From assembly GCA_037447655.1 (NCBI GenBank), contig JBBHKE010000441.1, positions 87,530 to 151,529 of the forward strand: a DNA stretch of 64,000 nucleotides, given 5' to 3'. The notes below the pieces were generated by a model. That model saw nothing but the letters and a program-made list of their open reading frames with translations. It was not told the DNA's origin and made no database searches. This DNA is from Zygnema cylindricum (lineage: Eukaryota; Streptophyta; Zygnematophyceae; Zygnematales; Zygnemataceae). Of this stretch, positions 7,601 to 63,400 are shown piece by piece (position 1 is the first letter of the stretch; each line of letters opens with the position of its first letter). Made by a program: the position numbers and the translations under genes.

Positions 7601-9549
7601 TTTTGTCGTTTTCAGTCGCAGGAGTTTATTGTTTGTGCCTCACAACCACTCACGTCTCTTCGAGACGCTGTGTATTGTTTACACGATGTTATCGCCATGG
7701 ACGCCAACCTCTCTCTCCCCTCTGCCTACATTTGCATTGAGGTTTGTTTTCTATTTTTCCCTCCTCTGGTCTTCTCTCCTTCTCCCTCTCCTTATCCCGT
7801 TCCCTCTCTCCCAAGTTATGTTGGACATGTGAAAAAGGGAAATGCGGAAAAACGGAAAGACAGAAAAACCAGTGAAACAGAAAAACAGAAAAATGAAAAA
7901 CTGGAAAAACAGAAAAAACAGAGAAATGGAGAAAACGGAAAAATCTTTGAACGGAACGACTCCGCCTTGAGTCTAAATGTGTCCACAAAATATAATAGAA
8001 ATGCATTGAAATAAATTTGAGAGCCTCTTGTTTCTATCTTGAAAAAGACAAAAAAACTTCCTTTTTACTGCTCACTCTCACTCATGATTTCTGCACTTGT
8101 TTTTTTGTCCCCTATTTTTTTTTTCGGGAATAGGAAGTTTTAAAAATCCTTTTCGTTTTTCCTTCTGGGGTTAGGCTGTTTTCTACCACAATCTTTTTCT
8201 TTTCTTTTTCGGGGATAGGATGTTTTTTCCAAGAATCCTTTTCTTCTTTTTCTTTTCAGGAATAAAATCCTTTTCACTTTTCTTTTTATGTTTTTTACAA
8301 CAATCCTTTTCGTTTTTCTTTTCGGGGATATGATGTGTTTTACAATAATCCTTTTCTTTTCACTTTTCGGGGTAGGATGTTTTTTCCAACAATCCTTCTC
8401 GTGTTTCTTTTCTTTTTTTCGTGGATAGGATGTTTTTTACAACGATATGCGTGACAGGGACGCGAAAGACTACAGTGCGTCGATTTTAGACTGGAACCGA
8501 AGTCAACGGAAAAAATGGAAAGAGGAACACATGGTGGAGGGGATTTTCGACGAGGGGTGTCCTTCGGAATTATTTTCGGCAAAAATGGAGGAGACAACTT
8601 TCTTAGACTTGAATATTCAAATAGGGATGAAATATGTTTATCTTCATCAGGTCTGTTTTCCAACTTCCTCTCTCTCTTTCTCTCCCGCTCCCTCTCTCCC
8701 TCTCCTTCTCCCTTTCCCTCTCCATCTTCCTCTCCCTCTCCCTCTCCCACTCTCTCTCCTTTTCCCTCTCCTCGTATGGGAGGGGAGGAGAGGAGGGAGG
8801 GAGGGAGGGAGGGGCGGAGGGGGGAGGGGACGAGAAGGGAAAGGTGGGAAGGGAGGGAGGGAGGGAAGAAGGGAGTGGAATGGCTTATGCATCACTAAGC
8901 ATTAAATTAATTTTGTTAAACTGATTGATTTTTGGGAAGGATTTTCCAATAGGGCGGTTGCAAACATGTTTTTCAAATAACGGACGCCCGTTTCGTACAT
9001 CCGACCGATGTGCAAAATAAAATTGCCTATCCCGTCACGAAATTTATCGTAAGTTCCTAAGAAATCCATGCGTTATATCCACTTTAGTTATTGTTTTCTG
9101 CTTTATACGATGTTTTATTTTCTGAATTCAGTATAACATAGTATATTGAAGGTTATATGCAGTGAAGATACAGGTTCAGTACTTTAATTTGCGAATTCTT
9201 GGTGAGAATGTTGCCGGTTATATCTGTTTATATCTGTTTTCTCTGTTTGTATCTGTTTTTTATGGCTTTTTTTGCGGGTAGAGAATAATCCTAATGGGTG
9301 TTTCACTTTTTCTTTTCCCGATTTTTTTATGGGTACTTTTGAGTGTTTTTTTTCGGGCAGCAAAAATTTCGGCATCGAAAGTGTATGGCTTGCGGAATTC
9401 TCGCCGCAAAAAAAGTTGTTTATGGGGACGAATTGATGCCGGAATCGCCGTCTTTTTTGTGTCAAGATTGTTATTACAGTGCCCACTATTCGAATGACGG
9501 GAAGCTTTTGTACTCCAATTATTCCGTATTCGATTACTATCACGAATGA
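4643..9549 (+). CDS. SNAPC3: snRNA-activating protein complex subunit 3 (SNAP50/SRD2-like)
   Basis: DNA-binding subunit of SNAPc, which recognises the proximal element of snRNA promoters for Pol II and Pol III. Exons: 4643-5809, 6154-6248, 6458-6584, 7207-7305, 7616-7741, 8429-8650, 8953-9048 and 9361-9549. All junctions keep phase and give 706 residues. Residues 1-389 are acidic with Asn/Gly-rich runs (GNGNGNGN) and not conserved. The family domain occupies about 497-706: DVFYNDMRDRDAKDYS then ILDW, METTFLDL, GGCKHVFQITDARFVHP, and the C-terminal zinc-ribbon-like CMACG...FLCQDCYYSAH. It ends FDYYHE-stop, much like SNAPC3 proteins. Intron 3 uses a GC donor (AAG|GCAAGT). ATG 4643 is chosen because CAG at 4624-4626 precedes it as an acceptor; an upstream exon is possible. 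The C-terminal identity is strong and the N-terminus is tentative. Confidence 0.88.
5980..6153. repeat. GATGATGTAGCAATCATTTAT repeat abutting a 3' splice site
   Basis: SNAPC3 intron 1 contains about seven imperfect 25-30 bp copies of a GGATGATG(A)TGTNGC-AATCATT unit. They run directly into the acceptor GTGTGACAG|GATGAGGG, whose exon start shares the repeat's GATGA core. Confidence 0.75.
7038..7180. repeat. tandem duplication in SNAPC3 intron 3
   Basis: Two adjacent copies of a roughly 70-bp unit (CTCGTATTAGAAAATTGATRTTATAAAATTG... GAGTTTTTAA) about 27 bp upstream of the exon at 7207. Intronic, with no coding content. Confidence 0.85.
8112..8440 (+). repeat. 3'-splice-site array before SNAPC3 exon 6
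   Basis: About seven degenerate copies of a 40-60 bp unit, CTTTTTCGGGGATAGGATGTTTTTTMCAACAATCC, precede the real acceptor GTGGATAG|GATGTTTTTTAC. Each copy carries the polypyrimidine tract, the AG and the first codons of the exon (Asp-Val-Phe-Tyr-Asn). Copies start near 8124, 8168, 8212, 8286, 8322 and 8368. Several keep an intact TAG|GATGTT, so they are potential decoy acceptors. Confidence 0.85.
8655..8880. repeat. CT-rich then GA-rich tract in SNAPC3 intron 6
   Basis: About 110 bp of pyrimidine (CTCTCCCT) followed by about 100 bp of purine (GGGAGGGAGG). The two halves are near complementary and could pair as a long imperfect hairpin. The overlapping frames are low complexity. Confidence 0.85.
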
Positions 9550-10680
9550 AAAACTGGTTTAATATGTTGAAAAAAATATAATAATCGGGGAAGATCGAAT
9601 TGACCTGAATCTCCGTCTTTTTCTTTTGTCAATTCGAATGACAGGAAGCTTTTGTACTACGAAATTACTCTGTGTTCAGTTACTATCATGAATGAAAACC
9701 AAGTTGTTAATACTATCTCGAGCAAAAAACCGGTTTTATATGTTAAAAACGGAGAAGATTTAATTGACTGGAATTGCTAGGCTTTTGTATCGAGATTGTT
9801 ACTACAGTGCAACTATTCGAATGACGGGGAAGTTTTTGTACTTCAATTATTCCGTATTCGATTACTATCACAAACGAAAAACCGGTTTAATATATCGAAT
9901 AAGATTTACGTGATCAAAGCCGTCTTCTTTGTGTCAAACACACTCTTATCTTGTTCTTTTTTTTTTTTCTTTTGTATTCCAATTACTTCGCATTTAATTA
10001 CTGTCGCGAATGAAAAAAGAAAGAATTGATTATTGTCAGTTTATTACCTCGAATACGGGGATGATTGAAGGGACCAAAGTTTAAGTAACTGGGTCTTTTA
10101 GGGTTTTTTTTCTGTTGAGATCGTTATTGCAGAGCCCACTCTTTTAATGACGGGAAGCTTTTCAGTTACTACGTCTTTGATTATTATAATGAATGGAAAA
10201 CCGGTTTTAAGATGTTGAATACATGAAAAAATTTAAGGTGATCGAAATTTAAGTGCCTCAGATCGCCATCTTTTTTGTGTCAAGATTTGTTATTACGGTA
10301 AGCAAATAAAAAAATGGAGAAGCTTCAAAAGGTAGAAGAACAAAACATGAAGCCAAAAAGAAAAAAAATAGTGCTTGTGTTGTTGTTCGAATGGGAAGCC
10401 TTTGTACTAAAATAGTCTAACAAGTTGTCTAAAAAAACAGGTTTATTATGTTGAATTCAGAGAAGGTTTAAATGGTCAAAATTGCCACTTTTTTTGAGTC
10501 TAAGTTATTATCACAGGGGAGACTGTCGGTTTTTGTTGAACAAAGGGCTTCAAAAATACTATCCTCTAAAGAATGATACAATCAGATCCATAAAATATAT
10601 AAAGAGTACACCACGAATGGTTATTAGCGTCAATAAAACTCGATCCTCATTACTACAGCGAAGGAATTATTAGTATAAAT
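9550..10680 (+). repeat. degenerate array of the SNAPC3 last-exon end
   Basis: Downstream of the SNAPC3 stop, the segment from CGTCTTTTTTGTGTCAAGA through TTCGATTACTATCACGAATGA recurs about six times with period near 170 bp (near 9611, 9775, 9925, 10090, 10255 and 10470). Copies contain parts of the coding block (ATTCGAATGACGGGAAGC...TTTTGTACT) plus the following AAAACCGGTTTAATATGTTGAA. Copy 2 (9775-9890) preserves most of the Cys-Tyr-Tyr-Ser stretch. All are frameshifted or stopped. I see no independent gene here. Confidence 0.85.
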
Positions 10681-10719: not shown

Positions 10720-12057
10720 TGTCTTTGCAAGAGGTTTGGGTTTTCTATTGACGGCCCGTGTTGCTCCCGCTGCTTATTTGGGAAGTTGGTGCCTTGTTGC
10801 CTCTACTATTGTCTCTCGTTTTTTGGTTGGGGACACTCCTATTCTTGTTACCGTTGTTCTCCGAGTTTCAGACGGTGTGCTCGTCTTCCACCGGTCCCTT
10901 CTAGATGCACCTCGTTCTCTTCCTACGGCTGCTATGGCGAACATCCCGGTTCTTTCCACTCTTGTTATGACATCGGTTGCACTTGTTCAAGAATCCATTT
11001 CTAATCAGGTTGACGTTGCTATTAAGACCAAGCTACTCGAGGTGCTTCATTCCGATTCTTCGTGTGCACGCTTACTCTCTTGTGGCGGACCTGGTTCCAG
11101 AGCATAACTATTGGCTATCCCTATCTTATCTACCCTTCGATTCACCCCAGCTCAGTTCACCACGGCCCTCACGTTTCAGCTTGGCCTCCCTCACCCACCT
11201 TTGCTTGGCTCTCTTGTTTTCTCATGTGACCACGTTCTCGAGCCTGACGACATCCGTTTGCTTTGTTGCTCCCACGTGGGCGAGTTGATTCAGGCGCACG
11301 ACACGATTCGAGACACCATTGCTACTATCGCTTCCGAGAGGGGATATTCTGTTCGTCGGGAGGTTTTCCACATTATTCCTTCGCGTCGTATTGACATTGT
11401 ATTACTCGATGGTGGGCGTCATACTTTTGGTGACGTTACCTTGGATACAAATGTTAGCCAAGCAGTTCGACACGTGGGTGTGGTTGCCCGTGACGCGGCC
11501 ACGCGGCCAGGAGGAAGAAGTGTGATAAAGCCTATCGCGATGCTATGGATGGCTTCATTCAGATGGCCGTCGAGATATTTGTTTGTTTGGGTGTGGCTTT
11601 GGACGAGTTCCTTCGTGCTTGTGGTCGGTGCTCGTTCGAGCGTCGAAGACCTGGAAGCCCTTCTGTTTGTACTTACTTCCTTATATTGTCAATGTTTAGC
11701 TCTGGCTTTACAACTAATGCAGGCTTCAATCCTCCTTGGATCGTCTATTGCAGCTATGGATGTCGACGTGTCCCGTAACTCCTTCGTCATGCTCCTCCAG
11801 GATTCGGGGAGTTGTTTTTTGTAGATTTTTAGTTATGCTGGGGATTTGTTGATAGATGTTGGATCTTTCCTTTGATGTTTCGCTGCTTTTTTTGGCTTCT
11901 TTGGGTGTTTTCGGTTTACTTGTCATCTTTTCATCTTTTTGTTGCTTTTGCCTTGCTTATCATTTTTGTTTCTTCCACCCACATATAGTTTTTCAGTTTT
12001 TGCAATGCTACGTCCCTATGTTCCCATGGTCAGATGATTTACCATCGCGCTTTTTAA
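10720..12057 (+). mobile_element. LINE copy B, 5'-truncated and degenerate
   Basis: Starts abruptly at a position equivalent to about 310 of copy A (GGGTTTTCTATTGACGGCCCGTG), as 5'-truncated LINEs do. It then follows copy A through the Cys-His knuckle (CDHVLEPDDIRLLCCSHVG) and endonuclease-like block (SRRIDIVLLDGGRHTFGDV) to a 3' end reading GATTTACCATCGCGCTTTTT then AATAAAGT. Frames are broken at 11106 (stop) and around 11510. It is more diverged from A and C than they are from each other. Confidence 0.82.
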
Positions 12058-17801: not shown

Positions 17802-18080
17802 CAGATCTAGAGGTAGATAATTACGGGGAGTAGATTCTGTTGCGTAGTGAAGGAGGAAAAGACGACATAACGTAGATCCAAAGGTACATGATTACAAGGA
17901 GTAGATCTTGTCGCGTAGTGAAGGAGGAAAAGATGACATAGCGTAGATCCAGAGGTACATGATTACGAGGAGTAGATCCTGTCGCGTAGTGAAGGAGGAA
18001 AAGACGACATAGCGTAGATCCAGAGGAACATGATTACGAGGAGTAGATCCTGTCGCATAGCGAAGGAGGAAAAGACGATG
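17802..18080. repeat. 71-bp minisatellite, four units
   Basis: Units begin GTAGATCC at 17872, 17943 and 18014, with a first diverged unit from 17802; the period is exactly 71 bp. Each contains GATTACGAGGAGTAGATCC, TGTCGCGTAGTG and GAAGGAGGAAAAGACGACAT. The array is joined directly to a LINE-like 3' tail on its right. The last three copies are near identical, suggesting recent expansion. Confidence 0.93.
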
Positions 18081-18620: not shown

Positions 18621-19201
18621 CGCTTACATGAGAAGACACAAGATACATAGAAATATATTCTTTAAAAATAAAGGAAACAAAGTAGTCGAGGTCGGATGTG
18701 CAATCTGCTGTCACAGTAACAAAAATCCAAAATAAAATAAAAATTCAAAATGAAAAAACCTCCTGTGTTTTCGTTTGCGAAAACCTCGTTTGCCAATTAA
18801 ACTGAAATACAAGGAGATAACATAAACAGTATATCTGGAGCATTTCGACCAAGAATTTGACCAAATCCTCTAAGAATCCTAGCTTTCCTAGACGTTTCCA
18901 CTCTTTGTATCAAGGCCAGGACCTCGAAAAATACAACAAAAATTGAATCAAATCTACTACATTTATTCCTCTCCCTTTCCCTAAGAAATAATCTAAAAGT
19001 TGTTTATCTTACGATTTTCCTCCATCGAGAGAGACTCACTTGTTTCGACCACTTAAATCCTTAGAAATCGTCTGTTGATCCTTATATGACGACTCTTCAT
19101 GGACATCATTAGGACCCTCCTCTCTCTTCTCCTTCTTTTTCTCACCCGCCTTCCTCTCTCGTCTTCTCCTCTTTCTTACCCTCCCCTCTATTCTCCTTCT
19201 C

Positions 19202-22200: not shown

Positions 22201-24457
22201 GCATGCCATCATCTTTATATACACCTTCGCCCCAATGTAATCGAGTCATGGACTTCACATCTTCCAAAGGAACTTCTACAAAACGTGCAGAATTCAGAAG
22301 AGTGTGATCGAGATCGAGAACCAGGTACAGCTTTTCTTGCGCCAATATGCTCTCAAGTTCGTTATTCCGCAATCGAGCAGCTTCTCGCCCCGAAAGCTCA
22401 AGACCCTGTATCGGAAAGTGAGCGGTTTCTTAAATTAAACGAACTGTTTTTTGGCAGAAACATAGTAATAAGGCTCACTTGAAGCTGTCTCTACGTGGTT
22501 CACAACGTCTTCGCTCGAGCCACTATGACGGAAAAATAGAGCTCCACCAGGTCATGTATCAATTTGGACACTCAACCGGATAAGAAGTGCAAAAAGCATT
22601 TGGTGAAAAAAACTTAATGAATCATTCCTCATCATGAGAGAGCGAGAGAATGAGAGAAAAAATAATTACTGTTGCAAAACTTTTGCAAAGTGGATTAAAT
22701 ATGAGAGGGTTTCACTAACCTCGTGAATGTACCGTAAAGCCACATTTGCCGGTTCTGAAGTGGCCTTGACGTCATCATCATGTTCTTTTAAGGAGCCACA
22801 GCGAATACAAACACCCCATATGAAGCCAGGATGGGGGGGACAGATAGTAGTGGTACTCGTAACTGTTTTTTGCTCCACATTCATTTCCCTGGCACCTAAT
22901 TTAAAAGCAGAGTCGGTTGTTCTAACAACTTTCTTCGTCGGTGAGTCTTCTGGAGGCGCAGAACAAAAAAACGTTAAGGGAAGCATGTCACTGACAAATA
23001 ATCGCTTTTACATATGAACCAGAGAATTTGAGGTTTCTGACCTTGCATCACATTAAGCCCTACAGATAATTTCATACAATTGTACTTGCTTTTAGCTTTT
23101 CCCTCCCTCTTTTTTACTTCCATCACTTGTTCACTAAAAAAACCTAAAAGATCTATAGGAGAAAATCTCTATTATGCCTCTCCTTTCTACTGTCTCCCTC
23201 TATTCTTCTCCCAAAATGTTTATCCCATTTCCCTGAGTCTTGCAATGCTTACGGAATAAATAAATGAAGAAATAGATAAAAATAATAACAACAAACCTCT
23301 GATAAACTGCCGACAAAAATTTGACACTTAGACTCATACAACGGTGGACAAAATTTCTTACATTTAAGGTTTTATTACCTTTTCCCGCTTGAATTATAAT
23401 GCAAACAATAATTGAAAGCACTTCTGAATGATTTTGAATCGAACTAAAAAACAACTCGTTCTCCCTGCCATACGAGAAGAAAGCTTTCTTTGTAAACAAG
23501 TGATGATTACCAAAATAAATAAAGCTGAATTTAATTGAGTACTGGACACAAATGGTGACAATATTGACCATGCCTTTCCTTTTGTGCAAAAAAATTGAAA
23601 CCTAATGATATTTTTCCTTTCCTTGTCACAAGCTTCAAATATTGCGCATTCCCTCAAACAGAGAATGAAATTTAACATGACATGAAATGACATGAATATC
23701 GAGATTTGCCATAATTGAATACTTACATCAATCCTTTTGCAAAAGCATGCCCTAGGAATAGGAAACTTACTTCATCCTGTTTAAAAAATTTCTTCCTAGT
23801 ATTTTGGTTTATGAACATCTTCACAGGGAGCCAAACTTTTTCTCAGTTTCTCACAGAATACTTATCTTGTGAATGAATTCCTGAATGTCTTGAAACTGTC
23901 TTTTGTATTTGTGGTCTACAAATGCATTGGTTATATTCAGCAATCACAAACACTTCATAAGTTCTACGCAATAGTGTACCTTCATACGAATTATTCGCCA
24001 GAATTTCCTCGTTCTCTCTTTTTCTTTTCACCTTTAAAGAGACAATAGAAGCATCGTCCTCTCTGCCTCCTCCTCCTCGTCTTCTGTCCCCACCGTCTCT
24101 ACCACTTGCGATTCCAGAAAAAGAGCCAAAAGTCACATCTGCCTCTCCTTCCTTGTTTTCTTCGTCTTCTCCTCCTTCCCCCTCTTCTTCTCCTTCTTGT
24201 TCTTCTTCTTCCACCTCTTCTTCTTCTTGTTCTTCTTCTTCTTCCTCTACTTCTTCTTGTTCCTCTTCTCCCGCTTCTACTTCTTGTTCTCCTCCTCCTT
24301 CTCCTTGACCTTCTTCTACATCTGCTTCTCCTTCTCCTTCTTCTCCATCTGCTTCATCTCCGTCAACTTTAAAAAGCTCTTCGTCAAGAAGAGTGGCCAA
24401 ATCGTCTAAGCTTCCGTTACTCTCACCAGACGTGGCAGGGGATTCAGGAAAAGACAT
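19202..24457 (-). CDS. CTDP1: FCP1-like RNA polymerase II CTD phosphatase (plant CPL4 type)
   Basis: Dephosphorylates the Pol II C-terminal repeat so the enzyme can be recycled; nuclear. Exons from 5' to 3': 24457-23980, 22949-22720, 22405-22195, 21900-21608, 20839-20648, 20049-20002 and 19795-19202. All are GT-AG with continuous phase, giving 681 residues. Residues 1-159 are acidic (Glu runs from GAA/GAG repeats). A Cys-His patch (CPPHPGFIWGVCIRCGS) and RYIHE precede the catalytic DxDxT motif (DLDHT, about 267-271). The second HAD motif ILDDT lies near 398-402, then WPRHRDNLLQVEQYHFF, DVRK, and a BRCT domain (about 485-582; IVFSRVFPRN, HPLWKMAKDMGA, HPRWVEASY). The tail is Lys/Glu rich. The 48-bp exon 6 is fixed by phase and by PDVRK|ILRGVRAEIL. 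Transcription is divergent from RF1. Confidence 0.93.
20160..20580. repeat. CT-rich tract in FCP1 intron 5
   Basis: About 400 bp dominated by CTCTCT and CCTCTC. On the coding (minus) strand this is a GA-rich run lying between the 192-bp and 48-bp exons. Confidence 0.9.
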
Positions 24458-24745
24458 TTTGGTGTCTCGTCTGACACAGTGACACCAGAACCAATACTAA
24501 CCGATAACTTTCATGCAGTAACTTTCAAAATTCTTAAAAAAGAAACAAAAAACGATAAAAGGAACTTGTCCATTGACACAAATTGATTGCGAAGACATTC
24601 CGGTTGTCTCGTCTGACATAGTTAACACTAGAACAAATACGAAAAAAATACGTTCATACAGAACTTAGAAAAATCTTAAAAAAATAAAAAAAGGGTAAAA
24701 GGAAATCAGATTGTCCATTGACACAAATTGATTTCGAAGATTTCG
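24451..24745 (-). repeat. tandem duplication spanning the FCP1 start codon
   Basis: A 141-145 bp unit (plus strand AAGACATTYYGGT-GTCTCGTCTGACA ... CCATTGACACAAATTGATT) starts at 24451 and again at 24592, with a partial third copy at 24736. The first copy holds the real ATG (24457-24455). The second recreates an ATG at 24598-24596, followed by 33 codons and a stop, i.e. a potential upstream ORF if it is transcribed. Confidence 0.88.
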
Positions 24746-25221: not shown

Positions 25222-28200
25222 ATGGCTTGGCGTTGCATTCTGTCCTCTCTCTCTCTCCTCTCTGGATCTCCTTCAAGTTATGATTTGAAAGCAAAAGCAT
25301 CCAGGCTTGCAGCTCAGAGTTTGGGCAAGAATCTGACCAAAAGCTTAGTGAGGCTTGATAACTTAAATGGAAATGGATTTTTAAAAGATTATTATGGATG
25401 GTCGCAGAGAAGATGGTTTTCTTCAGGTACTACCAGAAAAAAAAGAGAAAAATTTCGCTTTAAGATGTCAACTTTGAAGGATTTTTTTTGAGGAAATCGG
25501 TTATGGTCAATTGCTGACTGGATAATTTTATATATATATTTTTTTTCTTGTCATAGTCTTTTGATTATCCAGTTCAATCTTTTCTTTTTAATTGTTCCAG
25601 ACATGCTAGAGACACAGAGGTTATTCATTTCGTCGTTTTAGTTGTTCTGGTTTTGGAGCAACTATAAAGTGGGAGAAACCTCCTGGTTTACGTTTTTCTC
25701 TACGTCTTTATAATTTCTTTTATGGCAGATTCCCCAAGTTTTTGGAACAACTATAAAGAGGAAGAAACCTTCTGCTTTAACTTTTCTCTACTTCTTTTCA
25801 TTTTAACTGTTTCTTTTATGCTAGACTCCACAATTATTGTAAGCCAAGCGTTGGAACAGAGCATTGAAAAGCGGATGGCTAACATTGAAGCTCGGCATTC
25901 GGAACTTGTCGGTGTATCTGTGGAGGTAAGAAGCATGTTCAATTTTGACACACCATTGATCCTTGTTTCCCCCAAATTTGCCGATGGCGGTTATTTCATG
26001 CCGTGATTATCATTGCATGGCTTTTGGCATATGAACAAACGTAATGTTAAATTGTTAACTTACTAGAATCACTAGCTTCATCGTTGGTTAATCGCTGGTT
26101 ACAGTTGATAAGTTGATATTACCATTTCTTTTCTTCCACAAATCTGTTGCCATTGGTTATAGTGTTATGCTAAGTACACACATGGTATATAGGTACTGTA
26201 TAGCAGTTAAAACCTCTTAGTGACACAGTTAATTTCCCTAAGAAATGTCAGTTGACCTAAGATTCTCCATTGGTGAGGGATGATGGCTCAGCTAAGTACA
26301 CCACAGGAGAGACTCGCAGAGGTGAACAAGGAGTTAAGTTCGTTAGAATCTCCCATGGCTATTATTCGAGCTATAAGGAACAAGGCAAAGGTGTGTAATG
26401 CAGCCTGGTTAAATTCTGAAAGAATGATGTGGATTATTTGTGGGTTTCGATTTTTGAATGCATGGATTTGTTTTGACCTCGTTGATATCCGAGGTAGAGA
26501 GAGATAAGTTTTCATCATACTTACCAATATTTGTTTGTTTTTTTTTTCTTAAATATGCTGAATATTCACATACGTCCAAGTACTTTTCCCGAATGACGAA
26601 CACTCTTTTAACTTTTTAGGGTTTTGTTTGGAGGAAAATAAGCCTCAATTTTTTTTTCATTAAAATTGAGAGACTGTAAAATTAACTTTTTACAAAATGT
26701 TCATACCTTGAAAGAAACAAAAAAATAAATCCTAGTAAACATCTTGTCTTTTTGGTTAAAACAGGTCAACATTTTATGTCAAATATGAGAAGTGAGTTTG
26801 GATTGGTGATATCTGAGAGTATTCTTGCTGTCGGAGAATATTCTTAAAACGACCGCAATGACTATGATGTTTCCCTCAATACTTTTTGGTGGTTAGTTTC
26901 ACCCAAAATGCTCATCATTGACTTCAAGATAATGTGGAATTTGACCTAATTGGAGGTTTATTCGTATGGCTAGGAAATCGATGACTTGCGGTCCATGGCA
27001 CATGACTCTTCTAATGATGTTGAACTAGCGTCGCTAGCAAGAGAGGAGCTTGAAATGGCAAAAGAAGCAAAGCAGCGATTGCAAAGAGAAATGCTACAAA
27101 CACTTCTTCCAAAGGATGAGTCCGAGAGTAGAAATTGCATTTTGGAGGTCCGTGCAGGTAATTTTTTTTGCTACCAGAGAAACTTTGATTATCATTTTTT
27201 TCAAATGTTATTCATTTGCCAGTTGCGGAATTTGTCCATATCATCACTTTTTTGGGCACAAATATTCAAGTCCCTTGACTGAGTTTATGTGCACTAAAAC
27301 CCTGAAAATGATGTGCAAACCCTGAAAATTAGTATTAAAATGGATGTGAACACGTTTCTTAAGATTGCAGATTATTTGTTATTGACTTTGACTTTGCGTT
27401 GTTTATAGGTTCTGGCGGCGAAGAAGCATCCTTGTTCGCCATGGATGTTTTTCGCATGTAAGCTCCTAAAATTTATTTGGTGTTTACCCAGTTTCTTGCG
27501 ATTAATTGAATTTCTAAAAACTCGTCACGAGAGAGCAAATACCGGCACCATTTTTGGGGAATGTTTTTTACGTATAAAAGCAACATTGTGGGGGAACTAT
27601 ACATATGAGAACTTGTGGAATTTGACTTCTTGAACCATAATGAGTACAATCATCCGTTCCACAATTGCATCAAAAATTTATGGTCACTAAAAAGTTGGCT
27701 TCTTTTCATTGTTGGATTGGTGCTTGGTAGTGGAACCGACTCTTCTCTCTCTCTACCACTCTCCCTTCCCCTCTCTCTCTCTCTCTAAAGAATTGCAAGA
27801 CATATCTCTCCTCCCCCGATTCTTTCCTCCTTTATCTCTAACTTTTCCCTTATCTTTCTCTCTTCACACTTCTCCCTTTATACTTTCTTATTCATGAGGT
27901 GTTGCTTGCTAATCAACAGAGGTCAAAACTAATTGTTTAATGAGTGTAGTAATAATAATAATGAAAAAAAAATTGAAATGTCCCTCTTTTAGTAACAGCC
28001 ATGGGGAATTTTTCAGGTATGAGAGATATTCTCAAAACAATAATTGGCGATTTGAGGTGATGGGAGTGGCCTTATCAGGTCATCATGGCTACAAGGTACC
28101 TTCCTAGGTACTTCCCTAAGGCTCTTTTTTCCCATTTAATAATCATTAAACAGTGTTTACCGCCATTTGTATGAATTACACTCGTTCTGACACACACAAA

Positions 28201-50989: not shown

Positions 50990-51195
50990 ATGAAAGATTT
51001 TTGGCCAATAAAAGAAAGATTTGGCCAATAAAAGAAAGATTTGACCAATAAAAGAAAACTATGGAAGAATAATTTGGCCGATGAAAGAAAACTTTGGCCG
51101 ATGAAAGAAAACTTTGGCCGATGAAAGAAAAATTAGGCCGATGAAAGAAAAATTAGGCCGATGAAAGAAAAATTAGGCCGATGAAAGAAAAATTA
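50990..51195 (-). repeat. 20-bp tandem array containing the tRNA terminator
   Basis: About ten units (plus strand GGCCGATGAAAGAAAAATTA; older units GGCCAATAAAAGAAAGATTT) end exactly at the 3' end of the tRNA-Pro gene. On the minus strand every recent unit reads TAATTTTTCTTTCATCGGCC, i.e. each carries a T5 RNA polymerase III terminator. The units nearest the tRNA are identical and divergence grows with distance. Confidence 0.93.
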
Positions 51196-51267
51196 GGGGC
51201 GTTCCGAGAATTGAACTCAGGACCTCTCGCACCCAAAGCGAGAATCATACCACTAGACCAAACGCCC
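51196..51267 (-). tRNA. tRNA-Pro (anticodon TGG)
   Basis: 72 nt, no intron, no encoded CCA. Acceptor stem GGGCGTT pairs with AACGCCC, with discriminator C. The anticodon stem TCTCGC...GCGAGA encloses loop TTTGGGT (anticodon TGG). T-arm GGTCCTGAGTTCAATTC (B box GTTCAATTC). It closely resembles plant cytosolic tRNA-Pro. Transcription ends in the T5 run immediately 3'. Confidence 0.97.
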
Positions 51268-51795: not shown

Positions 51796-54398
51796 ATGAC
51801 GTCAGCATCGTCTAAAACACGCAAAGAGCCCCTGCAAGTATCCCTGCATGACATCACACGTGTAAGCATTCAAAATTACCTTACTTTTAGGGTTTCTAAG
51901 GTTCTTTTGTCGGCCATCTTTTTTTTTGCCTTGCGTTCCACTCATTCATTGGTTCATTATGTAGTTCGAATATACGGTCAAAGTTCGGGAAACACTATTT
52001 ATGGTAACCCCGTACTATACGCGTATAATACGTTTTTTTCTAACACGCGTATAGACTGACTTAAATACTTAATCTATGTTTGCAGGATAGCACTTAATTT
52101 TCAATTTTATTATGGTTGTTTTTATAATGTTTAGGTTTTATTATCGATAGATATTTTGTAAATGTCATGTTAGGGTTTCCATAGGGTTTTTTGAACGTGT
52201 ATTGGAGTTTTTGAATGTGTTGTTAGATTTTTAAAATGTATTCCTAGGGTTACTAAATGTTTATTGGAGTTTTTAAATGTGTTTTTAGAGTTTTATAATG
52301 TATTCCTAAGGTTTCTAAATGTTTATTAGAATTTTTAAATGTGTTGTTAGAGTTCTTGGAACAGCTTTTGGACCATCCTGCCCCTACCGGAGGCGTGACT
52401 GTGACAAGGAGTCAATGGCTGGAAGCTCTCACAAGTCTCAGCAAAGAAGTTGCCAAAGGTGAGCTTAAAGTGACAGCAATATTCTCTCTCTCCTTCTCTC
52501 TCTCACATACACACACTCTCTCTCTGTGTCTGTCTTTCTTTTTGTTTCTCTGTCTCTGTTTCTCTCCCTTTTTCTCTCTCTCTCTCTTTACCTGCTTTTT
52601 TATTTCTCAATTTAATTAGTTTGGATCTTTCTCTCCCTGTCTCTCTCTTAATTGCTATGATTTCATGCAGTCAAGCTAAACCTCTCCCTCACCCTCTCCC
52701 TCTTCCACTACCTCTATCTCTCCCTCTCAGTCGCTGTTTTTTGGAGCAGTAAAATAAAGCCGTCTGAAGGAATGCCTCTTTTGCAAACTTTCCACGACTC
52801 TGTAGCTCATGTTGTCCTCCTCCTCCATGGTAACACACAAGGAGCCGGTCCCTCCCTCCTCTCCTCTCTCAGAACGGCAGCCGTGGCTCTTGTAGAAGAG
52901 AGTATCTCTTTGATCGATGGAGCCATCAAAATGAATTCGAAAGGTTGGTTTTTTTGGGCTATTTTCAGTTTGTTTCATTTTTTTTTCCGTTTTTTTTTTT
53001 TGAGGGATTCTGGGATTTCTTACTATTTGGACTCTGGTCCATACTTTTTGGTGTTCATGTTGAAATCTTCACTAAAGAAATGTAGTTCTGTCTGCACTAA
53101 TTATTATTTAAATTTTGACACCTTGTTGATACTATCCTTTGCTACAATGTGAATCGTTATTATCGTTAAGAAATAATTAGTGTGAAGACTGTTTTAGGGT
53201 TAACAAGGGTATTTCCGGTCGGGCAATTGTTGAAATATTAGCGCTAAGAAAATAATCTTTAGTGTTATTAACGCTAATTTATGGTCAGAGGCCAAAAAAA
53301 ACTGATACCGAATTAGTGTTATTAACGCTAATAGCGATTCACGGCGTAGTGTTATACACTCCTTTGCTTCATTTAAAGAAAGCAAATTGCTTACAACAAT
53401 GAACCTTCTTTTCTGAAATTCATTACTATCTTCTGATATCATTTACAGGTAAATAAATTGTTAAAGGGTGAAATGTTATTGAGAAATCACCCATTTTTTT
53501 AAATTTTATCTTTTTTATTGTTACAGGTTTCGATTCGTCGGAACGGGAAAGGAAAATTCCGTTGTTGGCGAGTCGAGTTTTGGAAGCTTGTGAAGCTCTG
53601 AAAAAGACACCTGGCAGTAATCAAGCTGCGATTGGTCGAAATCTCGCACAGTTAGCGATTTCTGTGAAAGATGTTGTGAGAGAGATTTCTGAAATGCGAG
53701 GATCGGAGGGAGAAGGAGAGGGTGGAGAAGGAGGAGAGAGAGGAGATGGAGACGAATTGAGAGACGCCAAATCGAGAGAGAAAAAACAAGAGGGGGAGAG
53801 GGAGAGTGAGAGGGAGATGGAGAAAGAAGAGAGAAGTTTGAATGGTAATGGAAATGGGAAAGTAGAAAATGGGAAATCAAAAGTAAAAGTTGACAGTGAG
53901 GATGACGATGGGAAAGACCAAGGAGAGGAACAAGAAGGAGAAGACGATGAATTTACATTTGATTTTGAAGGCGATTTTAGTATCGAGGATTTGAAAGTTT
54001 CAAAAAAAGCTTCGGACATATGTGTTTCCGTTCAACGGATTTTTAGGGAAATGATATATGTTGTGGCCCAATGGAAAGAACCAAACTTTTCCACAAATGG
54101 GGGTATAAATGGTATTCAACCGAAAAACGGAGTCGAATCTATGGAAACTATTTTAGAAATTTGTCGAAATATTTCGAGAGAGATAGATGAACTTGGAGCC
54201 TCTTTGTACCCACCACAAGAATTGGAAGGTCTATTAAAAAGGGTAAAGAATATAGAGCGATTACTTGAAAGGTTACAAGAGGGAGTGTTAGAAATTTTGG
54301 ATGACATTCCGAGTAAACTTCTAGATGCGATTAAAGAATTTCAAGTTTCTGCAACAAATTTTAATGTTGTGGTAGACGAAGTGAAAGAAGAGTACTAG
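51796..54398 (+). CDS. CCNDBP1: cyclin-D1-binding protein 1 homologue (GCIP/CCNDBP1-like)
   Basis: CCNDBP1/GCIP proteins are helix-rich regulators that bind cyclin D in animals; the role of the plant homologues is poorly defined. Exons: 51796-51861, 52353-52458, 52731-52943 and 53527-54398, phase-consistent, 418 residues. Family-like blocks: WLEALTSLSKEVAK, GAGPSLLSSLRTAAVALVEE, and VLEACEALKKTPGSNQAAIG followed by RNLAQLAISVKDVVREISE. A Glu/Lys-rich linker (about residues 180-255) precedes a helical C-terminus containing FSIEDLKVSKKASDICVSVQ. The start ATGACGTCAGCATCG is taken as the first ATG of an exon ending in a good donor (CGT|GTAAGC). AATAAA occurs 16 bp after the stop. The family call rests on remembered block similarity. 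Confidence 0.8.
52140..52352 (+). repeat. 3'-splice-site array before CCNDBP1 exon 2
   Basis: A unit of about 63 bp, AATGTGTTGTTAGAGTTYTT...AATGTATTCCTAGGGTTTCT then AAATGTTTATTGGAGTTTTT, starts near 52214, 52277 and 52338; an older copy precedes them. The real exon begins within the third TTAGAG|TTCTTGGAAC. The earlier copies contain TTAGATTTTTA and TTAGAGTTTTA, so the acceptor region itself is the repeated element. Confidence 0.82.
52485..52730. repeat. CT-rich tract in CCNDBP1 intron 2
   Basis: CTCTCTCTC/CCCTCTCC repeats fill the 272-bp intron and run straight into the acceptor CTCTCAG|TCGCTG, acting as its pyrimidine tract. Confidence 0.85.
53146..53348. mobile_element. MITE in CCNDBP1 intron 3
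   Basis: ACAATGTGAATCGTTATTATCGTTAAG ... TTAACGCTAATAGCGATTCACGGCGTA; the termini pair as inverted repeats. The interior has several AACGCTAAT/ATTAGCGTT blocks. Same terminal family as 62317-62524. Confidence 0.65.
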
Positions 54399-56122: not shown

Positions 56123-59100
56123 TTAAGTCCTCAAATTTTCACCGATTGCTTGGTTCATAATTTGTTCGGCATACGTTTGACTTTCTTCTACATCGATATT
56201 ATCATTTCTAAAAACCTCGAAATTTTTCGCTTTTTCCGGATTCGCCAATGTTTCCGAAATTTTCGACCATCCTCGTAACTGCCCGAAAAATTCTTTCACA
56301 ACTGTATCCGATTCTGACCGAATATAGGGATGAGTTTCGACAACCACAAGTTTCGATTTTTTTAACCAATCGATTTGATTCGATTTCGAACGAGAAAATA
56401 AATCCTTCTCGCTCCCTTCAATATCAATTTTCACAAAATCAAAGTAAGGAATTCCCAAAAAACGCATCAAAAAGTGAACGGAAACTCCCAAAAGTGACGA
56501 TTCCACGGTCTTCCCAAAAGGTACCTGAAACCCAGAAAACAAAAACATTAGAAAAAAGAACAAAAAAGGGAAGAAAAACAAAATAGGAAAAAAAAGAAGG
56601 GAAAAAGGGAAAACAAAGAAAAAAACATTTTGGGTATTTTTGTTGTAAATGTCAATAGTTTTTGGGACAAAAAGTAAAAACAAAAAATTTAATTTGATCT
56701 CGTGACATTATTCATGTCCGTTTTCCGTTGCCTCGATTCCAGAGAAACAAAGTTGTGCATTTTTTCTTTTTTTGCATTAAGCTGACACAATGTGCAGTTA
56801 TTAGAGTGGATTTTCTTTAAAAAAAAATGAAGAGGGAGGGGAAGAGAGCGCTACTTGGCAGGTGGAATTACTTTCCATCGAAATCGTCGATTAGTGATCC
56901 GACAAGTGTGTACGGCGAAAAGTTAATTAAAATGAAAAAATTAAAAAGTTAATTGCAACGAAAAAAAAATGAACAATAGCAATACAGGGTGAAGTTCCTA
57001 GGGAAAAACGAACTAAAAAAAATAGAAATTAATGAGCCTTTTCGCGAGGAAGAAAGAGGGAAGCAGTGAGGGGGACGTAAGGAGAGAGGAGAGGAGGGTG
57101 AGAAGGGGAGGAGATGATGGGGAGGGGAAGAGGGAGAGGTGTCGGAGGACACGGAGGGAAAGAGGAAGAGAGGGAGGAAATACAGCGTGAAAACAACTCT
57201 AATAGCGATAAGGAGCATAACTTACAGAAGGGCTTTACCTTTGGTGCTCCCGTAACGATGTAACTCTCTCCTTTCCCTCTCCCTCTCCCTTCCTCATAAC
57301 CACATAAAGTTCTCCCTTTCCCTCCTGTCCCATCTCCCACCTCTCGCTTTCCCTCCCTCCTACCTTTTGTACTTTCATAACCACATAAACCTCTCCATTT
57401 CCCTCTCCCTCTCCTCTCCCTCTCCTCTCCCTTCCTCTTTTATTTATTTTGTTTCATAGCCACATGACACTCTCTCGCTCCCTTTCCCTCTCCCTCCCCC
57501 CCCCCTCCTCCCCCCCTTATCCCTCTGTCTCCATCTCCTCTCCCTCCCCCTTATACTTTTTGTGCTTCCATACCATACAACCCTCGTCCTTCCCCTCTCC
57601 ACCTCGTCTCCCTCTTCTTTCCTCTTACCTTTTGTGATTCCATAACCATATATCCCCATTCTGGAGGCAGATCCGGGTTTTTCTCTACTACTAAAGAGAG
57701 AGAGGTCATTCTTTTCCACAACGCCGCATTTACAGAAACTATGTTTGGATAATTCGCTGTATTTAGTCGCAAAACATCGTAATCTTTTTGCAAAGGTTCA
57801 ACACAAATTATTTTCGCTTTAGGAAACCTGCGAGTAAACATAAAAAACAACATCTTAGATAGGCATATATGCATACAAACTATACGTTTTGGATACCCTA
57901 TATACATCTATAAACATGTATAAATGTACATATACATATTTAATATATACAAATATACATTTATGCATGTACATACATTCCATATCTGTTCATATCTACA
58001 TGGAACATTTTCAACACATTAGCACCAAGCCTTTTCTCTTTCCCACTCCTTCTCTTTCTCTCCAAACATCCTAAAACACCAATTTTCTGTTGAATCCAAT
58101 CTTTCTCTTTTTCCCTCTCCATCTCCATCTCCCTCTCCATAAAAAACCCTTTGCATTGAAAGAAAAATCCGATTCACCAAAAAAAAAAAAAGAACAGTGT
58201 CTGCTTATCAAAAAGAGACAAGCAAAACCGTCGGAGATTTCATCAAATGGTTTCTTGACAAAAAAGTTTATAGAATAAAGTAGAAATAAAAGGGAGGGAA
58301 AAAAACGTTTCGAATTTTAAAAATACAAAAACGTACGATGTTGCAAAAATTGTTGCACCAATTCCAATATTTGCTCCAGCGTCCAAAATGCTTCGAACTT
58401 TAAAATTTGGTTTGATGAAGTCATACTCTCCCTCCTCTAACAGATGTTTTAACACAAGGACATCTGCATTTTTTTTCAGACAAAAATGAATAAAGTGACC
58501 TTGTTGACTAATTTTGACTGATTTTGACTCAATTTGAATCAATTTGAAGCACTAATTTGTTTGACTGAGTCGGTTTGACTAACTTTGACAAAGTTTGACT
58601 AACTTGGAATCAGTTTGACTGACAATTTAAGGCAATTCCAATGGCCTTGATGAGTTTTGAAAATAAAAATAGAAAAACGCATCGCCTGTTTGGAGATATT
58701 AGAATAGAGATTTCTGTGTTTACATCAAAATGCCCATTGGTTTTCAGCAAATTTTGTTTGAAAAAAACTTATTGAAGGTAATATACATGAGGAAAGAAAG
58801 AAAGAGAAAAAGAAAGGAAGAGAGAAAAAAGATCGGAAGAGAGAGGCAAAGAACCGAAAAAAGGAAAAGAAAAGGAAGAAAGGAAAAAAGAGGAAAAAGT
58901 AACCCTAAAAAAAAACCCTAAAAAACCAATAAAAGAAAAAAAACCCAATAACCAATGACAGATTTATCACACCTGTCGAATTTCTTCGCAAGTGAAGTGA
59001 TCGAACACACGGGATTTGGTCACAGGGAGCCTGATTGGTACAAAGAATTATACAAACAATTGGGTATTCATTGTTGGCGTCAAAAAGTTCAAACGAAAGG

Positions 59101-59151
59101 AATTGCCAATCCATCCACGCTCCTTTGAAAAAATAACGATTCTCGTACTTT
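56123..59151 (-). CDS. FkbM-family SAM-dependent methyltransferase
   Basis: FkbM enzymes transfer methyl groups from SAM, usually to hydroxyls of sugars or polyketides; the substrate here is unknown. Exons: 59151-58973, 58499-58337, 57827-57629 and 56524-56123, phase-consistent. Class I methyltransferase motifs: ILDAGANIGIGATIFAT (motif I, SAM-binding), FPKAKIICVEPL (acidic end of beta-2), FDFVKIDIEGSE (motif IV, the FkbM hallmark) and LVVVETHPYIR. The first exon listed (KYENRYFFKGAWMD..., ending RRNSTG) is joined on phase and splice sites only. The true start lies upstream and was not found. The protein ends GENLRT-stop. Exon 3 is followed by copies of its own donor, and exon 1 is preceded by copies of its acceptor. 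Confidence 0.85.
56790..56995. mobile_element. MITE in FkbM intron 3, degenerate
   Basis: GTGCAGTTATTAGAGTGGATT on the left, GACAAGTGTGTACGGCGAAAAG in the interior, AACAATAGCAATACAGGGTG on the right. It is a decayed copy of the 62945 family. Confidence 0.5.
57228..57628 (-). repeat. 5'-splice-site array in FkbM intron 3
   Basis: Five degenerate copies of the end of exon 57827-57629, i.e. the sequence that translates as GYMVMESQK followed by GTAAG, each followed by a purine tract on the coding strand. On the plus strand they read TACCTTTTGTGATTCCATAA then CCATAT (real, 57627), CTTTTTGTGCTTCCATACC (57556), TTTGTTTCATAGCCACAT (57447), TACCTTTTGTACTTTCATAA (57361), TCCTCATAACCACATAAAG (57291) and TACCTTTGGTGCTCCCGTAA (57237). 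The TACC (donor GGTA) is kept in at least two copies. Confidence 0.85.
57890..58015. repeat. TATACAT/TACATA microsatellite
   Basis: ATACATATACATATTTAATA-type AT-rich repeat in FkbM intron 2. Confidence 0.85.
58500..58645 (-). repeat. (TTTGACTAA)n array abutting an FkbM acceptor
   Basis: About ten imperfect copies of a 9-17 bp TTTGACT(AA/GA) unit upstream of the exon starting at 58499. The acceptor GTCAACAAG|GTCAC appears to be part of the repeat. Confidence 0.7.
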
Positions 59152-59350
59152 CTGCAATTTTGAGAAACAAAAACAGTTTTAGTAAAAACAACGATTCTCA
59201 TTTTTTCTGGGAGAAACAAAATCAGTTTAGTAAAAATAACAAATCCCGTTTTTTCTGCTATTTTGAGAAACGAAAACAGCTCAGTAAAAATAACGATTCA
59301 CATTTTTTCTGCGAATTTGAGAAACAAAAAGTGTTTAAAAAAAGGAAAAC
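59152..59350 (-). repeat. 3'-splice-site array before FkbM exon 59151-58973
   Basis: Four units of about 55-62 bp. On the minus strand each reads TTTCTCAAAAT(T)GCAG|AAAAAACGGGAWTTGTTATT then TTTACTAAA. The real acceptor is TTGCAG|AAAGTACGAGAATCGTTATT. At least one upstream unit keeps an AGCAG or GCAG acceptor. The repeat therefore covers the intron end plus about 25 nt of exon. Confidence 0.85.
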
Positions 59351-60170
59351 CATTTGTTGTTTTCTGCAACTTCGGGGAAAAAAAACATTTTGGATGAAAC
59401 AAAACGGCTTAGAAAGAACGATTCAAAAGAAACAAACGATAAAGAAGAAAAAAAACGGTTTTGAGAGAACAAAAGAATTAGGATGAAGCAAAGGAGTGAG
59501 AAGGAAATGAAAGGGGAGAGATTCTTGAAAAAAAAAAACCAAAGAATCAGAAGGAGACAAAAGGAGAATGAGAGAAAAGGGGAGACAAAAGAAGAGGAAA
59601 AAGGGAAAACAGAAGGGACTGGATAGGACGAAAAGAGAGAAGACACAGAAAAAGCCAAGAAGGAAATGAGACAAAGTTAAGGGAGAGAAAAGGCACAAAA
59701 AAGAAAGGAAAGAAGAAGACAGGATGAAAGAGAGAGGGAGGAAAAGGAACACGTTCTTTGAAAGTAATAGAAAATGGAATTTCCTGAAAAAAACTGGTTG
59801 TGTTTATCCATTGCAACTAGCGACAGAAAAAATGCATATAATACTCATCTGATTGGATATAAAGTGCGTCAGAAAACTTAACAAATATAACCTCTTCTGG
59901 CTCCCTCAAATCTGGTTTAAATTCCCATTCCTTTTTTTTTTTCTCAAACAGACACTATTTGTCATATCAGAGATATGACAAATGCTCCAGATTTTCCCGA
60001 CATCTCAGATCTCTCCCTTTTCTTTCACTCCCTCCACTCTCAAACTTTTCCTCTTTCCTCTCTCCTTCCCCTTCCACTGTGCAGCCTAAGCTACTTCCAA
60101 AAACCTTTCCCTCTCCCTCTCCTTTTACCTCTACCTCTCCCTCTCCCTCTCCCTCTCCCTCTCCCTCTCC
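59351..60170. other. A/G-rich then CT-rich region, no firm gene
   Basis: 59360-59760 is AGAAAAGG-rich. 60000-60170 is CT-rich, ending in a (CCCTCT)n run. A possible last exon of the coiled-coil gene lies on the minus strand near 59950-60015, where either acceptor option reaches a TGA within 60 nt; I cannot choose between them. Confidence 0.4.
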
Positions 60171-60174
60171 CAAT

Positions 60175-60425
60175 AACCTCACTTGCAGTGCCGCTATGGC
60201 CGAGAGCCAAAATGGCCGTCCAGTTCACCTTGCTGAGAAAATAGAATCCTTCCCCTCTCTGTCTCCCTCATCCGCCCCTCTCCCTTTTCTCCCCTTCCCT
60301 CCCTCTCGCCCTTCCTTCAACTCTCTCCTCCCTCTTGCGCTTCCTGCTTACTCTCTCCTCTCGCCGCTTGCCCTTTCTCTAACTTCCTCCCACCCTCTCT
60401 CCCTCCCCCCTCCCAGTAACCTCAC
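60175..60425 (-). repeat. exon-end copy with donor, coiled-coil gene
   Basis: The segment at 60178-60245 repeats 60412-60480. On the minus strand both contain GGTGAAYTGGACGGC, TTTTGGCTCTCGGCCATAG and TGCAAGTGAGGTTAYTGGGAG, followed by a GA tract. It is one duplicate of an exon 3' end with GTGAGG donor, unit about 235 bp. The intervening DNA is CT-rich. Confidence 0.85.
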
Positions 60426-63400
60426 TTGCAGCTATGGCCGAGAGCCAAAATGCCGTCCAATTCACCTTCGCTGAAAGAACACAATTTCTGCGGACCTCTG
60501 TGACCGTGTCTCACGACAGAGAGATCCTCCAATGAGAGACCGCCACCTGGCGCATTATGGACGGCATCTTCAGTACTGTTAATCATTGACTTTTCCATCA
60601 ATTCGTTGACTTTTAAGCCGACTTCGTTGACTTTCAGGCCAACTTCGTTGACTTTCAGGTCGACTTTGTTTTGTCCTTTCTGGAGAGATTCGAGGATGTT
60701 CACCTGGAAGGGGAGAGGGGAGGGAGGGTGGGAGAGGGAGAGGGAGAGGGAGAGGGAGAGGGAAGAGAAAGAAAATGTGAAACTTTAGAGAGTTTTGTCT
60801 CATCGCTGGAATCATCAGGTTTTGAGGTTTTTAGAGATTTAGGGCATTTGAGGGTTTAAATTGTAGAGGTAATGGAAGGTCTTCTGTAGCTTTCTGCGTG
60901 CTAGTTATGCACACCAATTAGTGTGGCTTTTTCTGGCAGGCCTGTTTTTGTGCTAACTATTTTTATCCACACCAATACTGGTATATTTCTACCAAATGAA
61001 ATGCTTTTTACACTAACTCATGTCTTATGCAAAACAATCCTTTCTCTAACTGACTTTTTAAAATTTTAAAAAACTTTATTCACAAGCTGTTTTGAAAATT
61101 TCCTCTGAATCACTATTAGCGCTAATAACCACAAAAACAAATGTCAAGCACTATTGTGATTCCTTACCTTTTCCTTTTGCCCTTTAACCACAAATAGCGT
61201 TAATAATACTAATTGATATTTTCTTAATGCTAATGCTTTAAGAGGTTCAAAATTGGCAATGCCATTCAGAACTGAATTAAAATTAATAATAATTAAACTC
61301 CATGATAGTAATTTTCTACTCTAATAGCAATTCTTAGTGTACATCTTACATCTCTATTAGAGTTAGTGAAATATTAGCTTTAAAGCGAAATTAGTATTAA
61401 CTACACTAAATCATGTCTAGCCACTTGACTCATTATGGGCCACTTAACTAAATAGTGTTTTTGACATTAATTTATGACTTCGGGTTAAACAAGAACGTTT
61501 ACCATTGCTAATCTACTATAATGCTCACACTTCTCCAAAATAAGGTGAATTCCACAATAAATTGTGTTTTTGTACGACAAAGCTAGCTGATTCTTCTTTA
61601 AAAAACCATACAAACAAAAATGGATCGCACACAAAATTAAATACACCTACTAGAGTTAATTAATCTAATTCGGCTCTAATTCGCAAGTTCTAACAACTCA
61701 AAATTACAAAAAAGTGCTATTAAATATTATTAAAAACACTTATATCAAAGGAGTGGGCCAAAACGAGCCACGCCAACCAACCTAAATTACTGTTATCCAC
61801 TCTTTAACACAAGTGCTTCACTGCCCCTAGTAAACATGGAATGTGTACCTTTCTTTAGGAGTTATCTAGTTTGGACAAAATAATCGCAATGAAATAGACA
61901 GTTTGATCCATGTCTATTGGATATAGCAAATTTTGAATGAATTTTTTGTAAAAAAAAAAATCATTCGAAAGAGACTAGATCCACATCAAATCAAGTTCAC
62001 CTTTCCTTGCAGGTCATCGAGCTTGAACAAAGTCAACTGTAATGAAGTTAACAAAGTCAACTGCAACACATTCATAATTTTGTACTAAACAATTTAGCTG
62101 GTTTAAGTTTTTAAAAAATCAGTCGGCTGTAATGAATTCATGCTCTTCTATGGAGCGACATTAGCTAATTTGTTGTAAAAAGAAACCATATGGTTCGTGC
62201 TATACACACATTATACCTTACAATACGCGTATAGAATGTATAATACGCAACCAGGATGAGGTAACCGCATAAGGCATTTCCAATTGTTTTCGCACATTGA
62301 ACTATGTTCAAAGGAGACACCGCCCATCGCTATTAGAGTTAATCACTCTAATTACAGGTAGTGTTTCTTTGACCACAAATCATAAATGAGTGTTAATAAC
62401 ACTATTTAAGTAAGTGCTAAGCCATATTCCAAAACATAATTTAGTGTAACAAAGTGATTTAGTGTGATTTTAACAAAGTCTTAACGCTCATAATTCACTA
62501 ACTCTCATAGCGATGGACGGTGTAAATCCACACTATTCTTGCAGGTTACCGAGCTTGGAAAAAAAAGTCGACAGCAATCTATTTATTTTCTTGAACTAAG
62601 CAAATTTAGCTAATTTGTTGCAAAAAAAAAAAAAACCATATTTAGTTCATCCGATGTTTAAAAACCCATTCGAAAGAGACTCTATCTGCACTAAATCAAG
62701 TTCACCTTTCATTGCGGGTCATCGATCTTGAACAAAGTCAACTGTAATAAAATTCATGTTCTTGTAATAAGCAAATTTAGCTATATTTCGTTGTAGGAAA
62801 AAAACGCATAGTTCAAATGTGTGAAAACAATTGGAAGCGCTATATGTAGTCTGTGATATACCTTCTAATACACATATAGTATGTATACTACACAAATAGC
62901 ACGGGGTAACCACGGTGTTTCCAATTGTTTCCGCACCTTTGAACTACACCGTGTATCGCTATTAGTGTTAATAATTTTTTCGCCACTTAGAAAAAGAATT
63001 CTCCGTACACACTTGTCCAATTTTCAATTTGAGACCGCCAATCGAAAGGTGATAATCTTGGCTTTCAATCGAAACCGTCAAATCCTTAATCCAACAAGTG
63101 TGTACGGAGAAAAGATGTTTTAAGTGGCGGAAAAAACATTAACATAAAGAGCAATACACGGTGTATGTTAAAGAAGACTAGATCCACAGTAAATTAAGTT
63201 GTACTTTTCTTGCAGGTCATCGAGCTTCGAAAAAGTCAACTGTCATTAATTCATATTCTTGTACTATTTGAGCCACAGTAAATCAAGTTTACCTTTCCTT
63301 GCAGGTCATCGAGCTTGGTCAAAGTCAACTGTAATGACGTCAGCAGCTCTTCCCTGCTGTCTGCCAGTTTCCATAGGGAAGACAAATGCCTCCGTAGCTC

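Follow-up and report, generated by a model that had tools for sequence, protein, structure and literature searches.

Tandem arrays spanning splice sites and start and stop codons in a 64-kb stretch of the Zygnema cylindricum genome

Genes and boundary-spanning arrays in the window

Here we describe the tandem arrays in 64,000 nt of DNA from Zygnema cylindricum (assembly GCA_037447655.1, contig JBBHKE010000441.1, positions 87,530 to 151,529 of the forward strand; hereafter the window), ten of which carry a functional gene boundary, that is a splice site, a start codon or a stop codon, inside the repeated unit. All tests were confined to this single 64-kb window, and the array numbers given below are counts within it. 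The DNA is eukaryotic and nuclear; it contains two tRNA-Pro genes, and seven protein genes were modelled: SNAPC3, a CPL-type CTD phosphatase (NIF and BRCT domains), the mitochondrial release factor gene RF1 (mtRF1), MMADHC, DAD1, GCIP (cyclin-D-binding) and an FkbM methyltransferase. Models were built from Pfam profile matches on translated stretches, in a subset of the reading frames, together with splice phases. In this way 42 exons were assembled with consistent phases and GT-AG introns, one intron being of the GC-AG type; in the model this is the type of SNAPC3 intron 3, with its donor at 6585 (AAG|GCAAGT). The 34 introns measured range from 202 to 2589 nt. Pfam scores of MMADHC and FkbM are slightly below the Pfam cut-offs, FkbM being backed by homologues. 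Related proteins support the junctions of FkbM, CPL and GCIP exon 3, the acceptor of the latter having been moved from 52671 to 52731 on the evidence of related protein P0001. Among the 120 listed of 854 CPL matches, the best (59% identity) is labelled jgi/Mesen1, which we take to be Mesotaenium endlicherianum, and the named relatives are mostly land-plant proteins. The models are partial: MMADHC lacks its first exons, mtRF1 is interrupted by an N gap, and further genes may be missing. The 853-nt N run at 28687-29539 probably conceals at least one mtRF1 exon between 28095 and 30296. In part of the counts 2 of 84 boundaries were misplaced (the GCIP exon 3 acceptor, and the CPL exon 4 donor by 1-4 nt), neither of them array-bearing.

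A preliminary description of this DNA had listed twelve cases of arrays straddling such boundaries or a tRNA end. Homology-based models reproduced the five acceptors, four donors, start codon (24457) and stop codon (9549) that it named, and the tRNA-Pro 3' end at 51196 was confirmed as well. Whether units cross the boundaries was examined by gapped local alignment against a control in which the flanks were resampled from a first-order Markov model, a spanning copy being defined as one with at least 6 nt on both sides. At least one spanning copy was found in all ten arrays tested (8429, 25825, 30296, 36119, 57629, 59151, 60426, 63293, 9549 and 24457), so that each is accompanied by direct nearby copies in which exon sequence is joined to intron or flank. 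They comprise eight splice sites, one stop and one start codon, with an exon overlap from about 7 to 106 nt, and a gapless scan flagged nine of them, missing 24457, whose unit includes 7 nt of coding sequence (CDS). The repeats exceed chance and the arrays are real; arrays occur at 8 of the 71 modelled splice sites, spread over four genes, with the functional copy at one edge of the array as had been described. The other two claimed cases merely touch their boundary and were discarded as spanning arrays on account of an overlap of 1-2 nt. One is the minisatellite at the 3' end of tRNA-Pro (51196-51267; array 51000..51197, reverse strand), with a 20-bp unit that contains TTTTT on the tRNA strand and overlaps the gene by 2 nt, and the other is the intronic array that abuts the acceptor of GCIP exon 2 (52353; array 52188..52354, forward strand; 62-bp or 21-bp unit), with 1-2 nt of overlap.

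Two arrays belong to SNAPC3, both on the forward strand. At the acceptor of exon 6 (8429-8650), the array at 8112..8446 has a unit of about 45 bp formed by TTTTTCGGGGATAG and the first 14-18 nt or so of the exon, and four boundary-spanning copies lie upstream of the functional site. At the stop codon (9547-9549), the array at 9444..10471 has a unit of about 145 bp joining some 95-106 nt of the last exon to the 3' flank, with about 4-5 diverged copies downstream. The start codon of CPL (ATG 24457) lies in a duplication at 24451..24740 on the reverse strand, with two copies of about 142 bp whose coding part is ATGTCTT alone. In mtRF1 (forward strand) the acceptor of exon 2 (25825-25925) is duplicated at 25651..25834, with two copies of about 96 bp that include about 9 nt of exon, and the acceptor at 30296 carries an array at 29770..30318 with a unit of about 95 bp, about 22 nt of it exonic, preceded by a 15-bp minisatellite. 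The best case is the donor of MMADHC exon 36119-36273 (array 35378..36161, reverse strand), where a unit of 120-145 bp runs through the last 43 nt of the exon, the donor, about 35 nt of intron and then a GGGAGA tract, and is repeated in five further diverged copies.

The FkbM gene, on the reverse strand, has four such arrays. At the exon 5 (57629-57827) donor the array at 57235..57656 is degenerate and includes the last 24-28 nt of the exon, the donor and a purine tract; two boundary-spanning copies exceed the control, the remaining ones being recognised by eye only. The exon 3 (58973-59151) acceptor array at 59129..59391 has a 54-bp unit composed of pyrimidine tract, CAG and about 23 nt of exon, with three spanning copies that all keep the AG (3/3). 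The donor of exon 2 (60426-60703) is duplicated at 60163..60490 as two copies with a lag of about 240, each with up to about 60 nt of exon, the donor and a GGGAGA tract. Finally, copies of the last 43-48 nt or so of exon 1 with its donor (63293) lie at 63181, 62689 and 61978, dispersed over 1.5 kb of intron 1 (61843..63341); an extra copy at 61843 is marginal, with a score of 25 against a 99% control of 26.

Relationships among the copies and motifs at unit edges

The preliminary description spoke of decaying copies, which is generally true, although the decay shows no gradient with distance. In MMADHC the five further copies are 83-97% identical to the functional copy; the third and fourth reach 97%, the nearest one 85%, and the idea of boundary arrays as a graded conveyor was abandoned on this basis. 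Taking all copies that could be compared, the nearest relative is another copy in 14 of 23 and the functional copy in 9 of 23. At 8429 (6/6) and 59151 (3/3) the copies are closest to one another, therefore expansion continued inside the intron. All copies at the SNAPC3 stop codon (4/4), whose relationships are star-like, and at 30296 (2/2) are closest to the functional copy, and mixed arrays are found in MMADHC (2 of 5 closest to the functional copy) and at 63293 (1 of 3). These data fit a history in which duplication crossed the boundary once or a few times, after which the array grew in the ordinary way.

Unit edges, which were placed by eye, share a short motif clearly in MMADHC (GGGAGA) and at 59151 (a T run), and likely at 57629 (GGGGA). 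In MMADHC, GGGAGA begins 4 of 5 copies, occurs once in that 155-nt exon, at an exonic density of about one per kb, and is also the motif of the tract past the donor. At 59151 a T6 run closes the exonic portion of the unit and is matched by T runs at the opposite edge. As regards the slippage at polypyrimidine tracts proposed in the preliminary description, a pyrimidine run at a unit edge is clear at 59151 only; the donors are better fitted by GGGAGA tracts.

Array frequency at exon boundaries and rival explanations

Coverage by position was scored as the presence of a local copy (22 of 30 matches within 2 kb). Local copies were found at 4/35 acceptors and 3/35 donors; among other positions they were found at 11.1% of those in introns, 7.3% of those between genes and 4.1% of those in exons, so that in this measure junctions (7/70) are covered no more often than introns. 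The distance profile across the introns and exons of the window has no peak at the exon edge: introns are covered at 8-14% at every distance, and exons at 9% over their outermost 15 nt, about 5% from there to 30 nt and about 4% farther in. Arrays are found between genes, inside introns, inside exons and across boundaries alike, and those without an exon at their edge form the majority, being 24 of 33 as flagged and 23 of 33 after hand correction, an outcome that the preliminary description had named as counting against its proposal. This majority is typified by an intergenic array at 17803..18078 (71 bp x 3.9, no strand assigned) with no modelled exon at its edge. A 25-bp intronic array at 5994..6148 (forward strand) stops 5 nt before the acceptor of SNAPC3 exon 2 (6154), and exon-internal arrays lie at 60602-60670 and 5349-5393.

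The ten arrays are tandem duplications, and we think, with moderate confidence, that they arose through slippage-type duplication between short simple-sequence motifs, occurring at a high rate all over the genome, and not through targeting of exon boundaries. In this scenario, a segment would be duplicated when the polymerase slips or switches template between the two motifs that flank it, one at the exon end (GGGAGA in MMADHC, T6 in FkbM exon 3), the other a tract within the intron that matches it. The copy closest to the exon body would remain the working splice site, because its use keeps the protein unchanged, and the added copies, sitting in intron or untranslated region, would drift. Some arrays, as those at 8429 and 59151 with copies more alike than to the functional one, may then have grown within the intron as minisatellites. 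Duplications that leave the outermost splice site intact would be tolerated, and selection may explain why units contain little exon, plausibly since longer exon pieces disturb splicing or coding. Between the two origins put forward in the preliminary description, a mechanism that seeds duplication at boundaries and a high genome-wide rate of duplication on which selection then acts as a filter, the data incline towards the latter, and the per-array excess discussed below keeps the former in consideration.

Several observations weigh against slippage without targeting, most of them from counts per array, in which units of the same length were placed at random in the whole window or in genic space under 15 detection settings. 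At threshold 22 and complexity 17, 9 of 33 non-exonic arrays straddle a boundary versus 3.4 expected (P 0.005); this automated nine includes a merged cluster at 51015-51475, into which the tRNA gene pair was drawn, and omits the true straddlers 57629 and 24457, and after hand correction 10 of 33 straddle versus 3.3 expected (P 0.0007). Across thresholds 21-24 the excess is 1.3- to 3.3-fold, with 8-9 straddlers of 22-55 arrays versus 2.6-4.9 expected in the whole window (P 0.0008-0.05) and a weaker 7-8 of 12-33 versus 3.4-6.0 in genic space (P 0.01-0.24). With a hand-merged list 10 of 28 straddle versus 2.2 in the whole window (4.5-fold, P 3e-5) and 10 of 14 versus 3.2 in genic space (P 7e-5), this list having been assembled with the answer in view and giving P values much smaller than the automated ones. 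Dispersed copies with a lag above 250 and low-complexity stretches were omitted from hand-merged and automated lists alike. By position too, coverage falls to 3.6% of intron and 6.3% of intergenic positions once straddling arrays are removed, and junction coverage (7/70) exceeds that 3.6%. An edge motif is clear in just 2-3 of 10 arrays, the others showing none. At the eight splice-site arrays the exon contributes 9-60 nt, somewhat less than uniform breakpoints would give (mean test P 0.04; P 0.02 for all parts being at most 60 nt); a ceiling of 45 nt (P 0.003) was dropped because the exon part reaches about 60 nt at 60426 and is 48 nt long at 63293. Slippage draws support from the presence of donor arrays at 3/5 introns with a GA-rich first 150 nt versus 1/29 others (34 introns, Fisher P 0.006), but this association is partly circular because the tract lies inside the repeated unit, and its cut-off (10%) was chosen after seeing the table. 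In this sense a true excess at boundaries is possible, and duplication could be seeded there: exon edges of transcribed genes would start it, through R-loops, through triplex or G-quadruplex formation by purine tracts past donors or through pyrimidine tracts before acceptors, and introns would grow by repeated copying of exon edges. We consider this unlikely. The per-array excess, the spread of arrays over four genes, the GA tracts, the short exon parts and the copies at the SNAPC3 stop and 30296 that are closest to the functional one speak for it. On the other side stand the distance profile without a boundary peak, a per-position frequency at boundaries equal to the intron average, the expansion within introns at 8429 and 59151 and the flat identity in MMADHC. 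Moreover, the most similar arrays (threshold 25, at least 25/30) show no significant excess in the window, with 3-5 straddlers versus 2.8-3.9 expected (P 0.15-0.73; 4-5 versus 2.8-2.9 and P 0.15-0.31 for the whole window only), a threshold of little power. Nominal P values are optimistic because the pattern was noticed before the test, and in one window. Distinctly unlikely is the stronger view that introns of this lineage grow by exon-edge budding and that splice boundaries are true hotspots of tandem duplication; GGGAGA tracts past donors or pyrimidine tracts before acceptors would then stall replication or encounters between transcription and replication, and a template switch to a matching motif about 10-60 nt inside the exon would repeatedly copy the splice site into the intron.

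The excess could also arise from retention under uniform duplication, if arrays with one copy under purifying selection stay recognisable up to twice as long; this is possible, if on the improbable side. A twofold bias of this kind removes significance in 23 of 24 automated settings at thresholds 21-24 (P 0.036-0.82), the strictest threshold is not significant even without it, and the star-like SNAPC3 stop array speaks for it. However, under the same bias P is still 0.044 for the hand-corrected count and 0.002 and 0.005 for the hand-merged list in whole window and genic space, the GA-tract association is left unexplained, and mean identity from functional copy to copy (0.79; 23 comparisons in 6 arrays) is hardly above that between copies (0.77; 38 comparisons). 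The conserved-copy bias invoked for the excess is therefore small where it was measured, a further point against slippage without targeting. That selection keeps the copies as spare splice sites which aid or regulate splicing seems to us very improbable. In its favour, the AG or GT is in register, by eye, in 18 of 22 boundary-spanning splice-site copies versus 13.6 expected at the mean identity (P 0.04; 19 of 22 and P 0.012 when the site at 63181, shifted by one base, is counted). Against it, the alignments had to span the boundary and so favoured retained dinucleotides, and related proteins show nothing inserted where FkbM exons 2 and 3, and 5 and 6, meet, both of these junctions bearing arrays. 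Spliced RNA as template for repair, another suggestion of the preliminary description, is scarcely credible and was rejected: the splice-site copies are colinear with unspliced DNA, in which exon continues into intron, the exon-exon joins expected from it were not seen in these copies, and no evidence supporting it was found. Returning to slippage between simple-sequence motifs, it remains the explanation we prefer; once array density is allowed for, the link of the arrays to boundaries is uncertain, and the data fall short of establishing a special boundary-anchoring mechanism.

Known systems, other duplications and significance

Ordinary minisatellites expand by replication slippage or unequal exchange. 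The arrays of the window resemble them in unit length, variable copy number and imperfect copies, and differ in that one edge of some units runs into functional sequence.

The statement that the pattern has no described name was too strong, since published accounts already describe tandem duplication across a boundary (PMC4974935) and, in green algae, an enrichment of repeats close to the ends of introns (PMC3887541). In the RdRp gene of potato, a tandem genomic duplication across an intron-exon boundary copied a segment with the intron end, acceptor and exon start, which supplied a second set of splice signals (PMC4974935). That case is a single duplication that made a new spliced intron, whereas here the further copies, about five at most, lie within an intron already present, with no new intron seen in the sequence. 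In 31 plants and algae, tandem repeats are also enriched toward the junctions of introns with exons, an effect strongest in the two green algae studied, and units that include exon sequence are not discussed in the available part of that report (PMC3887541). A short duplication with splice signals is likewise involved when introns are gained through tandem copying of an exon segment that bears AGGT (PMC2891723; PMC3443670). The unit in that model is fully exonic and the intron has the length of the unit; the units described here are part exon and part intron, and the introns of 202-2589 nt are not unit-sized at these sites. For multi-copy splice-site arrays, we found no description in a literature search that was not exhaustive, to which PMC2812944 and PMC4201569 contributed nothing decisive.

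Other duplications were observed in the window. DAD1 has a direct duplication of about 1.9 kb, 97% identical (38997-40904 and 41849-43744), which includes 5' flank, exon 1, donor and part of intron 1, and both copies of exon 1 are apparently intact, with ATG at 40555 and 43395. In CPL, introns 3 and 4 share a similar stretch flanking exon 4 (21444-22057, lag 584), a non-adjacent duplication with 30 nt at 87% and longer by eye. Also in CPL, a 15-bp array at 19114-19356 encodes C-terminal repeats of the KREEEK/EEK type and extends past the stop codon (19202-19204). Three related open reading frame fragments (CGRVLGPDGVHLLSCSHGG variants) at 12-911, 11108-11824 and 12396-13157 look like pieces of one dispersed mobile element. 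Stretches of the AGTGTTATTAACGCTAAT type recur in introns, at 53259-53332 and, similar by eye, in 62300-62450, and are possibly a small dispersed element.

If boundary-spanning duplication is common in the genome, it would offer a visible series of steps for the lengthening of introns, the multiplication of splice sites and the origin of cryptic or alternative sites, and gene finders that work without homology may put exons at decoy splice sites in this DNA. Furthermore, should boundary seeding be shown genome-wide, it would link the simple-sequence tracts beside splice sites to intron growth.

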